Below, piece after piece: positions 31,785-36,650 of a DNA stretch of 64,000 nucleotides. The notes beneath the pieces were generated by a model. The model did not search any database, had not been told where the DNA came from, and saw only the letters and a list, made by a program, of their open reading frames with translations. This DNA is from Chloroflexota bacterium. GTDB taxonomy: Bacteria; Chloroflexota; Anaerolineae; UBA1429. The stretch is from NCBI GenBank assembly GCA_019873625.1, contig JAIOAW010000012.1:1-64000 (forward strand), written 5' to 3'. Numbering within the stretch: the first letter of the stretch is position 1; every line of letters begins with the position of its first letter. The position numbers were made by a program, and so were the translations under genes.

Positions 31785-33146
31785 ATGCTCACGTACCGCC
31801 AGGCGCTTGAGGCGATTTTCCAACGGGCCGATTACGAGCGGGGCGATCGTCCCCCCTATCCGGAGCGGGTGTGGCGCCTTGCGCGCGTGGAGGAACTCCT
31901 TGGGCAAATTGGGAACCCCCACCGCGCCTACCCCTCAGTGCACATCGCGGGGACCAAGGGCAAGGGGTCCACCACGGCGATGATCGAATCCATCCTGCGG
32001 GCGGCGGGCTACCGCACGGGGATGTACACCTCGCCCCATCTGCATACCTTTCGAGAGCGCATCCAGATGGAGGGTGCGCCCATCTCGGAAGAAGAGGTGT
32101 CGGCGCATATGGAGGAACTCATCCCCATCCTGAAGGAGCGCCCTGAGGTAACCGTGTTCGAGATTATCACGGCCCTGGCGATGAAGGCCTTTCGGGCGCG
32201 CGGGGTGGAGTGGGGCGTGTTCGAGGTGGGGATGGGCGGCCGCTTGGATGCCACGAACGTCCTTCTGCCGGAGGTGGCCGTGATCACCTCCATCAGCCTA
32301 GATCACGTGAACGTGCTGGGCCATACGCTGGATGCCATCGCCCGCGAAAAGGCGGGCATCATCAAAGAGGGGCGGCCGGTGGTCAGCGCACCCCAGCGCC
32401 CCGAGGCGCTAGAGGTCATCGAACGCACGGCGGCGGAACGCAACGCACCCCTTACCCTCGTCGGGCGAGATTGGCATTGGCGCTACGAGGGCACCGATGG
32501 CGCTCGGCAGTGGCTCACCATCTGGCGCGAGGGGAGCGAGGCGTCGCCCGAATATCCCCACGTGGAACTGCCCCTTTTGGGCGCGCACCAGTTGGAAAAC
32601 GCCTGCAATGCCGTGGCCGCCATTGAAATCTTGCGCGAGAAGGGCGCCTCGATAAGCCGAGAGGCCGTGCGCCAAGGGCTGAGGGAGGTGCGCTGGCCCG
32701 GCCGGTTGGAGGTGCTCGGGCGCACGCCGCTCGTCGTGCTCGATGGCGCCCACAACGGCTATTCGATGCATTGCCTCCTAGAGGCCGTGGAGGCCTATCT
32801 CCCCCATCGGCGGCTCCTGGTGGTGTTCGGCGCGGGGGTTACGCACAACCCGGCGGAACTCTTGGCCGAGATTGGGCCGCGCGCCGCGGGGCTGTTCATC
32901 ACGCGTTCGCGCCACCCCAAGGCCGCCCCCATCGAGACGCTCGCGGCCATCGCGCAGGATATGGGGCGCCTTGCGGGCACGGTTGAACCCGTCAGCGCGG
33001 CGCTTGAGGCCGCCTGCGCCGCCGCTCAGGCGGAGGATATGGTCTTGGTGACGGGGTCGCTCTTTGTGGTGGCCGAGGCGCGCGAGGCCTGGGCCATCAC
33101 GCACGGCTGGCCCCCCCTGCCCAGCGACCCGCCAGGGGTCTATTAG
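31785..33146 (+). CDS. folC: Folylpolyglutamate/dihydrofolate synthase
   Basis: VHIAGTKGKGSTTAMIESIL, YTSPHLHTFRERI, EVGMGGRLDATNVL, LDGAHN. Confidence 0.96.
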   Translation: MLTYRQALEAIFQRADYERGDRPPYPERVWRLARVEELLGQIGNPHRAYPSVHIAGTKGKGSTTAMIESILRAAGYRTGMYTSPHLHTFRERIQMEGAPISEEEVSAHMEELIPILKERPEVTVFEIITALAMKAFRARGVEWGVFEVGMGGRLDATNVLLPEVAVITSISLDHVNVLGHTLDAIAREKAGIIKEGRPVVSAPQRPEALEVIERTAAERNAPLTLVGRDWHWRYEGTDGARQWLTIWREGSEASPEYPHVELPLLGAHQLENACNAVAAIEILREKGASISREAVRQGLREVRWPGRLEVLGRTPLVVLDGAHNGYSMHCLLEAVEAYLPHRRLLVVFGAGVTHNPAELLAEIGPRAAGLFITRSRHPKAAPIETLAAIAQDMGRLAGTVEPVSAALEAACAAAQAEDMVLVTGSLFVVAEAREAWAITHGWPPLPSDPPGVY

Positions 33147-34717
33147 AGGCGCACGTAGGCCGCTCGCCGGATGCTCGGCATCGCCATCACGCGGGCCATC
33201 ACCTCCGGGGGGAGGGGATCGTCCAACCCGGTGACCATCAGCCCCGGGCCGCCGCGCTCTTGGCGACCCACCTGCACAAACGAGATATTGATCCCCGCGT
33301 TCCCCAAGAGGAGGCCCATCTGCCCGATGATGCCGGGCTGTTCGATGTGCTCGCTCACCAAGAGGTGCCCTTGGAGGACGAAATCCAGCCAGTAGTCGCC
33401 CAGGCGCACGAGGTGAGGTTGGCCGCGCATCACCGTGCCGCTCAAAAGGTGCTCTTGTGAAGTGGTGCGCACGATGAGCGTAATCAGCCCGCTGAACCCC
33501 TGCGCCTCGGGCGTGCGCGATTCGCGGATGATGAGGCCCCGTTCGGCGGCGATGAGGCGGGCATTCACCAGGTTCACCGCCTCTTCGCCCGATTCGCCCA
33601 AAATCCCCATAAGCACCGCCGCCGTGATGAGTTGCGTATTGTGTGCTTCCACATCGCCGGCGTAGATGATCTCCAAATGGGAGAGGTTATTTTCCGCGTA
33701 TTGGGCGTAAAAGCGGCCCATCTGCGTGCCCAGGTTTAGGTAGGGGCGCAAAAAGGCCATCTCCTCCGCCGAGAGGGCCGTGATATTCACCGGGTAGCGC
33801 GGCGGCCGGCCAGAGAGCACGTCGAGCACCTGCTGGGCCACTTGCAGGGCAGCGCCGCTCTGCGCCTCTTGGGTAGAGGCCCCGAGGTGCGGCGTGAGGA
33901 CGAGGTTGGGGCAGGCCAAGAGGTCTGGGTTGAGGTGCGGCTCATCGGGGAAGACGTCCAGCGCGGCCCCTGCGATGAGGCCCTCGCGCAGGGCGCGGAT
34001 GAGGGCCTCCTCTACGATGAGGTCGCCGCGCGCACAGTTGATGAGGTAGGCCGTGCGCTTCATCTGTTCGAGTTCGCGCGCGCCGATCATCCCCCGCGTG
34101 CGCTCCGTGGAGGGCACGTGGAGCGACACGTAATCGGCCTCTCTGAGGAGCCTTTCCAGGCTCACGAGTTCCACGTTCAGCCGCTGCGCCCATTCGGGCG
34201 CCACGAACGGGTCATGGGCGATGACGCGCATCTCAAACCCCCTCGCCCGCGAGGCGACCGCCGTGCCCACGCGCCCCAGGCCGATCAACCCCAGCACTTT
34301 GTCGCGCAACTCGGTGCCCATAAAGTGTTTTTTCTCCCAGCAGCCAGCGTGCATCAAGGCATCGGCCTTGGGGATGTGCCGCGCGAGGGAAAGCATCAGG
34401 GCTAGCGTATGCTCCGCCACGGCCACGGTGTTGCTCGTGGGCGCATTCACCACCAAGATGCCCCGCCGCGTGGCGGCCTCCAGGTCAATATTATCCACGC
34501 CGGTGCCGGCACGGGCGATGACCACCAACCGCTCGGCCCGTTCGATGATCTCCGCCGTGACGGGCGTGCTCGAGCGCACGATGAGCGCATCGTAGGCGCC
34601 GATCATCTCGCGCAGGGCCTCCGGCGAAGGGTTCAGGTGCACGTCCACCGCGCAGGTTCCCTGCAAAAGGGCCAACCCTTCCGGCGAAAGCGGCTCCGTA
34701 ACGAGAATGCGCCTCAT
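33143..34717 (-). CDS. serA: D-3-phosphoglycerate dehydrogenase
   Basis: VIARAGTGVDNIDLEAATRRGILVVNAPTSNT; C-terminal ACT-like IIGQMGLLLGNAGINISFVQVGR. Confidence 0.96.
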   Translation of the reverse strand: MRRILVTEPLSPEGLALLQGTCAVDVHLNPSPEALREMIGAYDALIVRSSTPVTAEIIERAERLVVIARAGTGVDNIDLEAATRRGILVVNAPTSNTVAVAEHTLALMLSLARHIPKADALMHAGCWEKKHFMGTELRDKVLGLIGLGRVGTAVASRARGFEMRVIAHDPFVAPEWAQRLNVELVSLERLLREADYVSLHVPSTERTRGMIGARELEQMKRTAYLINCARGDLIVEEALIRALREGLIAGAALDVFPDEPHLNPDLLACPNLVLTPHLGASTQEAQSGAALQVAQQVLDVLSGRPPRYPVNITALSAEEMAFLRPYLNLGTQMGRFYAQYAENNLSHLEIIYAGDVEAHNTQLITAAVLMGILGESGEEAVNLVNARLIAAERGLIIRESRTPEAQGFSGLITLIVRTTSQEHLLSGTVMRGQPHLVRLGDYWLDFVLQGHLLVSEHIEQPGIIGQMGLLLGNAGINISFVQVGRQERGGPGLMVTGLDDPLPPEVMARVMAMPSIRRAAYVRL

Positions 34718-34798: not shown

Positions 34799-36157
34799 CT
34801 AGAGATTCACCTGCGGCAGGCTCTGCAAGGCGCGCTGAATCATCTCTTCGGGGTAGGCATAGTTCTCCAAACGCCCCTCAAGATAGGCGTCATAGGCGCC
34901 CAAGTCAAGGAAGCCGTGCCCGCTCAGGTTGAAGAGGATGACCCGCTCCTCGCCCTTTTCTTTGGCATCGAGCGCTTCATCAATGGCCGCGCGGACGGCA
35001 TGGGCCGACTCTGGCGCGGGGATGATCCCCTCGGTGCGGGTAAAGAGCGCGGCGGCGTCGAACACGGGCACCTGATGATAGGCCCTCGGCTCGATGTAGC
35101 CCAAGCGGTGCAAGAGCGCTAGAAGCGGTGCCACGCCGTGGTAGCGCAACCCCCCTGCGTGGATGGCCGGCGGCACGAAATCGTGGCCCAAAGTATCCAT
35201 CTTGACCACGGGGGCCATCTTGGCCGTATCGCCATAGTCAAAGGCATACACGCCGCGCGTCATACTCGGGCAAGCCATCGGTTCCACGGCCACAAAACGC
35301 GTCTTGGCGCCCTCGCGCAGGTTCTGGCGGAGGAAGGGCAAGGCCAACCCGCCAAAGTTCGAGCCGCCCCCCACACACCCAATGACCACATCCGGGTAGG
35401 CGCCGGCCAGGTCCATCTGCTTGATGGCCTCTTCGCCGATGACCGTTTGATGCATCAGAACGTGGTTCAGCACGCTCCCCAGCGAGTACTTGGTATCGGC
35501 ATTCTTGAGGGCTACCTCCACGGCCTCGCTGATGGCAATGCCCAGCGAACCGGTGGAGTTGGGGTCTTTGGCGAGGATGGCGCGGCCCGATTCCGTTTCG
35601 TCGCTGGGGCTGGGCACCACATCGGCCCCAAAGAGGCGCATCACCGAGCGACGGTAGGGCTTTTGCTGGTAACTCACCTTGACCATATAGATTTTGCATT
35701 CCAGCCCGAAAAAGTTGCAGGCCATCGCCAGGGCAGACCCCCACTGCCCTGCGCCCGTCTCCGTGGTGAGCCGCTTCACCCCCGCGATTTTGTTGTAAAA
35801 GGCCTGGGCCACGGAGGTGTTCGGTTTATGGCTGCCCGTGGGGCTGGTGCCCTCGTACTTGTAAAAGATCTTGGCCGGCGTGCCGAGGGCCTGTTCCAGG
35901 CGCACGGCGCGGTAGAGGGGCGTGGGCCTCCACAGTTGAAGGATCTCCCGCACCTCCTGCGGGATGTCAATGTACCGCTCTTGGCTCACTTCCTGCAAGA
36001 TGAGATCCATCGGGAAGATCGGCTCGAGGTCGCTCGGCCCCACAGGCTGGAGCGTTACCGGGTGCAGGGTGGGCGGCAGCGGTTCGGGCAGGTCCGCCTG
36101 CACGTTATACCACTGGGTCGGCACGTCATTTTGCGAGAGTAGGAATTGCGTTTGCAT
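34799..36157 (-). CDS. trpB2: Tryptophan synthase beta-like protein, TrpB2 type
   Basis: [75 protein letters not shown]. Confidence 0.93.
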
Positions 36158-36261
36158 GGCTCTCCTTTCGGTCATAGATTGCGAATATCCTCGGTGCGGC
36201 ACAAACCCGCGCTAGACCCCTTTGCTCCTCATCGTGCCATCTTCACCTCCTTGCCTTATAA

Positions 36262-36616
36262 CAAGAAAGGCCCTCGCCCCCAAGGGACGAGAGCCTTGCG
36301 CTCCCGAGGTGCCACCCTCCTTAGGTGGCCAAAGGAATCAAAAAATCCGCCGTGATGGCGGATAGGGTTCCTTGGCCAGCCTCACTCTGCAGGTACGGGG
36401 CGAAACATCTTGCGTTGATGTGGCCCGATACCCTCGGCCATAATAACGGTGGCGGCTCCGTCACCCCCTACTGGGGCGGCTTGTGCCCGTTCGAAGGTGC
36501 AACTCCCAGGCCCATTCGCTGCCCGCGCAAGCGCCAGGCTCTCACCTCACCCTGGCTCTCTGGAACCCCGCCTTGGCAGGTACTCTTCCTGATCTACGTC
36601 TTTCGGCTTCGGTTTG
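36262..36616 (-). promoter_or_regulatory. T-box leader (apparent Trp specifier TGG) controlling trpB2
   Basis: Minus strand: AGAGTACC, GGTGAGGTGAGAGCC, specifier context GCGAATGGGCC (TGG at 36514-36512), T-box core AGGGTGGCACC (36318-36308), terminator AAGGCTCTCGTCCCTTGGGGGCGAGGGCCTTTCTTGTT. Confidence 0.93.
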
Positions 36617-36622
36617 GGCATC

Positions 36623-36650
36623 ATTATATAGCCTTTGAGAGGGTTGTCAA
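36623..36650 (-). promoter_or_regulatory. Promoter of T-box-trpB2 transcript
   Basis: Minus strand TTGACA-N16-TATAAT. Confidence 0.85.

Follow-up and report, generated by a model that had tools for sequence, protein, structure and literature searches.

The locus lies on the minus strand of a 64,000-nucleotide stretch of Chloroflexota DNA, which we refer to as the window, and consists of a sigma-70-type promoter, a T-box leader, a trpB2 gene, and a serA gene (Table 1). A preliminary description had read it as a Trp-specific T-box riboswitch preceding an orphan trpB2, and the parts that it listed were recovered. The RF00230 covariance model matches the leader over its full length (model positions 1-219 of 219) with 92.3 bits and E=7.3e-21 in E-value-mode cmscan, and the same match was returned by a search of the whole genome. 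The promoter is an exact match to the consensus; promoter-like sites numbered 4, compared with 0.3 expected in shuffles. Both Stem I motifs are present (AGAGTACC at 36586-36579 and GGTGAGGTGAGAGCC at 36551-36537), and the specifier loop and the distal double T-loop motifs (AGUA/GAA, AGAGA, GGUGA) align with RF00230, as does the antiterminator. The T-box core AGGGTGGCACC was found at 36318-36308 and the terminator hairpin at 36297-36267 with a 14-pair stem, and the antiterminator and terminator sequences are mutually exclusive. The RRRxG-Stem III-AA discriminator motif reads GAGUG...CCUAA. The minimum free energy of the full leader is unremarkable (z -1.6), but that of its 3' half stands out (z -3.6).

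The covariance score is 0.7 bit below the Rfam gathering cut-off (93), and a gathering-level Rfam scan of the window returned three tRNAs and nothing else. With its E-value, the match is thus far from chance, yet it is missed by a scan at the default cut-off. Since the genome has eight T-boxes and seven of them score below this cut-off, the threshold is at issue and not the sequence. The RF00230 cut-off under-calls T-boxes in this group, and pipelines relying on it may miss most of them.

Table 1. Features of the trpB2 leader and the genes that follow it, in window coordinates
Feature	Position	Strand	Basis or detail
Sigma-70-type promoter TTGACA-N16-TATAAT	36623..36650	-	12/12 consensus matches, read in sequence
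T-box riboswitch RF00230, full length	36280..36605	-	cmscan
Stem I: AGUA/GAA specifier loop, AGAGA and GGUGA distal loops	36502..36599, approximate	-	RF00230 alignment
Specifier codon UGG (Trp) in GCGAA-UGG-GCC	36512..36514	-	sequence; comparison with relatives
Stem II and IIA/B region: ACGG...CCGUUA; GAGGGUAUC...GUACC	36389..36499, approximate	-	Stem II: RF00230 alignment; IIA/B placed from sequence, borders approximate
Purine string AGAGUGAGG 5' of Stem III; GUGA (36385-36382) complements nested loop	36380..36388	-	published motif match; complementarity test
Stem III, outer helix AGGCUGGCC...GGCCACCU, then AA	36323..36382	-	MFE fold
Nested hairpin AUCCGCC-AUCAC-GGCGGAU and U6 (36345-36340)	36340..36363	-	terminator scan, fold, position kept in relatives
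T-box core AGGGUGGCACC; UGGC (36314-36311) pairs with tRNA-Trp 3' end GCCA	36308..36318	-	sequence, RF00230 alignment
T-box terminator hairpin and T-rich tail; 5' arm shared with antiterminator	36261..36297	-	14-pair stem, fold
trpB2 (TrpB-like PLP enzyme)	34799..36157	-	ATG 36157; Shine-Dalgarno AAAGGAG 36168-36162
serA (phosphoglycerate dehydrogenase)	33143..34717	-	TIGR01327, 597 bits

Specifier, target gene, and the tryptophan regulon

The specifier had been given as an in-register UGG, and our comparison agrees. UGG is invariant in about 35 trpB2 leaders of Anaerolineae, while the base after it can be G, A, T, or C. Because the specifier loop of the Trp T-boxes lacks one base relative to the other T-boxes in this genome (GAA-UGG-G-CC compared with GAA-N-NNN-N-CC), a register one base further on, with GGG (Gly) as the specifier, is formally possible. 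The invariance of UGG next to a variable base speaks against this register, and so does the discriminator base: the genome's tRNA-Trp(CCA) ends in ...CGCCU-G-CC (RF00005 scan) and hence has G73, which suits the UGGC bulge in the UGGN-NCCA pairing, whereas its tRNA-Gly(CCC) has U73, which does not. As the genes behind these T-boxes are moreover trpB2, trpE, and trpS, we ruled out the glycine register, whose chance of being correct is vanishingly small. Some relatives carry a UGGU bulge, in agreement with the G:U wobble recorded in TBDB for 46% of Trp T-boxes (PMC7778990). The survey of relatives also turned up other unusual pairings of specifier and gene, in which the downstream genes were named by eye. 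A T-box with a Tyr-like GAA-UAC-A specifier (L160, G008:C25) has the shortened register of the Trp T-boxes and precedes a gene resembling tryptophanase or tyrosine phenol-lyase, and four Ile-type (AUC) T-boxes (L237, L241, L235, and L244) are found not before ileS but before genes for AlaX-like editing-domain proteins and GNAT acetyltransferases.

The assignment of the target gene to the TrpB2 type was equally borne out, as its product lies far above the cut-offs of NF009057 and TIGR01415 (664 bits for the latter, cut-off 519) and is set apart from TrpB1 by a TIGR00263 (trpB) score of 158 bits, below the cut-off of 392. The nearest solved chains are from 6hul (6hul_B first), 4qys, and 6hte, and a PADLOC scan of the protein gave no match. 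The word orphan holds in part. The gene stands alone, but its regulation is not isolated, since the same genome has Trp T-boxes before the trpE operon and trpS. The whole-genome search found eight T-boxes, each upstream of a gene suiting its specifier: valS (GUC), thrS (ACC), ileS (AUC), pheS (UUC), serS (UCC), and, with UGG, trpB2, trpE, and trpS. The trpE T-box (contig C5) precedes a complete operon of trpE, fused trpGD, trpC, trpF, trpB1, and trpA, so that the genome has a separate trpB1-trpA pair besides trpB2, and the trpS T-box lies on the same contig as trpB2 (C12), past the end of the window at 73.4 kb. In two Dehalococcoides genomes, ileS, trpE, and a trpB-like gene have been described as preceded by T-boxes (Wels et al., 2008; PMC2494555), and the association of T-box and trpB2 was therefore already known in this phylum. 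Our findings confirm this known Chloroflexota Trp T-box regulon and extend it in this genome to trpS. In another genome, a Trp T-box with the Stem III hairpin described below precedes a gene for an ABC-type substrate-binding protein (L226, G038:C177), which was named by eye and may be a tryptophan transporter.

The serA gene starts about 80 nt downstream of trpB2, with an inverted repeat between the two, and is possibly co-transcribed with it. The order trpB2-serA is shared by no relatives other than the two nearest (L038 and L039), so that co-regulation of serA is a guess at the level of this lineage, and we rejected a conserved trpB2-serA operon. Phosphoserine is used by some TrpB2 enzymes, and serA would suit such an enzyme as a neighbor.

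Small open reading frames were also seen ahead of trpB2. In other Anaerolineales, the stretch from T-box to trpB2 contains a tiny ORF ending in FHPP-stop (or LHPP/LQPP-stop, with UGA as the stop codon) and/or an ORF of 45-80 amino acids ending in F-[IVL]-P-stop. Such Pro-stop ORFs occur at loci L049, L051, L056, L058, L066, L069, L070, L089, L096, L190, and L202 and, in a second list, at L056, L057, L060-L064, L071, L083, L093, L187, and L198, and the shared Pro-stop ending is reminiscent of leaders with nascent-chain arrest such as TnaC. The window itself has only a three-codon ORF, ATG-GCA-CGA-TGA (36240-36229, minus strand), between the T-box terminator and trpB2, with a good Shine-Dalgarno sequence (AAGGAGGTGAAG), and we do not claim TnaC-like control for this gene. 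Similar two-codon ORFs (ATG-TTT-TGA and alike) are found in the Dehalococcoides-like leaders L188, L191, L194, and L196.

A terminator-like hairpin nested in Stem III

Absent from the preliminary description is a second terminator-like hairpin, seven pairs closed by an AUCAC loop and directly followed by six U residues, which lies inside Stem III, past Stem II but ahead of the T-box core and upstream of the normal terminator. Most trpB2 leaders of Anaerolineae have a nested hairpin in the same place, among them that of the cultured relative Leptolinea tardivitalis (L092). We surveyed 111 T-boxes from 41 genomes of the class to which the organism belongs, grouped them according to gene, and looked in the linker for a hairpin of -6 kcal/mol or lower with a U-tract behind it. 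This combination was present in 12 of 14 trpB2, 10 of 14 trpE, 3 of 20 trpS, and 2 of 2 other Trp T-boxes, compared with 1 of 61 non-Trp T-boxes (22/28 for trpB2 and trpE together against 1/61, Fisher p=2e-14, with the proviso that T-box sequences are related and the counts are not independent events). Dinucleotide-shuffled trpB2 and trpE linkers gave 30 of 420 (7%). The second batch of loci was picked partly by length, which may favor long linkers; the gene assignment is independent of this.

A strict pattern for the nested element (AGTGARGCTGGC-N8-36-TTTTT), scanned over the 41 genomes, was found in 16 distinct places, all of them within T-boxes, and the reversed control gave 0; a free-standing element outside T-boxes was not found with this pattern in these genomes. 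The T-boxes concerned precede trpB2, trpE, trpS, or one ABC-type binding protein. In two of the 16 places, the T-box core is slightly altered or more distant, and one of these two has no resolved downstream gene. The nested hairpin is missing from Dehalococcoides-like trpB2 T-boxes and from some trpE T-boxes, so that a T-box does not need it in order to function. In the literature that could be searched, a scope outside which two key older reviews fall, we found no description of a Stem III with such a nested hairpin, and to that extent we regard it as a new structural variant of a T-box that is otherwise of a known kind.

The loop of the nested hairpin is complementary to the purine string at the 5' side of Stem III. 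In trpB2 T-boxes, the loop is CAUCAC and the purine string AGUGAGG, such that UCAC faces GUGA; trpE T-boxes of the family to which the window belongs combine GAGAGAGG as the purine string with a UCUC(UC) loop, and further string/loop variants are GUGAGA/UCUCAC, GUGAAA/UUUCGC, and GUGAA/UUCAC, so that a few of the differences are compensatory. A four-pair duplex between loop and flank can form in 73 of 78 elements, where shuffling leads one to expect 21 (maximum 34). Over 80 elements, the best flank:loop duplex scores 4.41, compared with 3.36 +/- 0.10 when the loops are shuffled and 4.17 +/- 0.06 when partners are exchanged (0/5000), and the 75 simple Stem IIIs gave no such loop:flank signal (2.53 against 2.66). 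In the gap-aligned subset (alignment A2), the paired share is 82.4%, compared with 80.7% when the 3' letters are exchanged (26/500) and 27-65% when the strands are slid. Only three double changes occur in the alignment; the covariation is thin because both strands are nearly invariant. Judged by this complementarity, the nested loop and the purine string likely form a pseudoknot.

A further lead concerns the 5' strand of Stem III (GCUGGC, 36380-36375), in which UGGC complements the GCCA end of tRNA-Trp. All 35 trpB2 elements compared keep its GCUGG unchanged, while the 3' partner varies.

Possible roles of the nested hairpin

Overall, it is highly probable that a terminator-type T-box at this locus reads tRNA-Trp and controls trpB2, perhaps together with serA, with a nested Stem III hairpin that possibly acts as a pause site. 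By analogy with the T-box family, uncharged tRNA-Trp would stabilize the antiterminator and allow trpB2 to be transcribed, and charged tRNA would leave the terminator to form. What the nested hairpin might add is less certain. We tentatively propose, at a little under an even chance, that it makes RNA polymerase pause, or terminates transcription in part, between the tRNA-binding half of the leader and the decision hairpin. The pause would give the tRNA time to bind, and the pairing of loop and purine string would form during it. The RRRxG-Stem III-AA motif is published, and in known structures the tRNA-bound discriminator is where the purine string docks (PMC7583486); docking and pairing with the nested loop should therefore exclude each other, which would order the steps, as docking would have to wait until the loop pairing has opened. 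For glyQS, pausing at Stem III has been published, and the role of Stem III has been called unclear, with pausing as a proposal (PMC6197855). The Trp T-boxes with a terminator-grade Stem III lie beside sisters with a simple Stem III in the same genomes, which makes the role of Stem III directly testable.

The chief rival to a pause site is a constitutive partial terminator that lowers the maximum output of the tryptophan-making genes and in which the loop complementarity has no function. By the usual rules, the nested hairpin is indeed an ordinary intrinsic terminator (7 pairs, U6), and it precedes the biosynthetic genes trpB2 and trpE and mostly not trpS. A plain terminator, however, needs neither a location within Stem III nor complementarity to the purine string, both of which are kept across the class, and we consider this explanation unlikely, though worth serious attention. 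An improbable further reading is that the Trp T-boxes of Anaerolineae are switches with two checkpoints, in which the nested element would itself be a regulated attenuator. The pseudoknot of nested loop and purine string would then make a first stop/go decision, coupled to tRNA-Trp or another Trp signal, before the classical one, and the invariant UGGC of Stem III might offer a second pairing site for the GCCA end of tRNA-Trp.

It is also rather doubtful that Stem III is merely stable, with no effect on polymerase and an incidental T-run. Stem III is the least conserved part of the T-box and tolerates changes in length (PMC6197855), and several Trp T-boxes do without the nested hairpin, but a T-run directly follows the hairpin in 22 of 28 trpB2 and trpE T-boxes, compared with 7% of shuffles. 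Poorer still are the prospects of a vestige of a duplicated antiterminator-terminator module, that is, a partly double T-box: ahead of the first terminator, the Stem III 5' strand does retain a UGGC resembling the T-box bulge, but that terminator has neither a T-box core nor antiterminator pairing, no second AGGGUGG-type core lies 5' of the nested hairpin, and UGGC and the hairpin lie at widely varying distances from each other. Two other candidates were rejected. Leader-peptide attenuation would have a Trp-rich short ORF reading into the nested terminator, and none was seen; an upstream arm that opens the nested hairpin was considered on account of partial matches to CCGUU of Stem II or to GCC in some relatives, which are inconsistent.

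Comparison with known T-boxes and TrpB enzymes

The leader shares with the RF00230 family (e.g. B. subtilis tyrS and glyQS) Stem I with its specifier loop, Stem II, CCGUUA, the order purine string-Stem III-AA, the AGGGUGGNACC core, the antiterminator, and the terminator. It differs in its Stem III, which holds a terminator-like hairpin and U6; the loop of this hairpin is complementary to the purine string. In glyQS, a pause ahead of the antiterminator decision has likewise been proposed or seen at Stem III, but that Stem III is small and simple, whereas here a full terminator-type hairpin lies within it. The Trp T-boxes of Dehalococcoides (PMC2494555) agree with ours in phylum, specificity, and target genes. 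The Dehalococcoides-like trpB2 T-boxes of our survey (genome family f38, L186-L196) differ in that their Stem III is short and lacks the nested hairpin. The encoded enzyme matches the TrpB2/TrpB-like family over its full length (TIGR01415, NF009057; PDB 4qys, 6hte, 6hul), and its gene is set here as a stand-alone trpB2 followed by serA, apart from the trpB1-trpA pair of the same genome.
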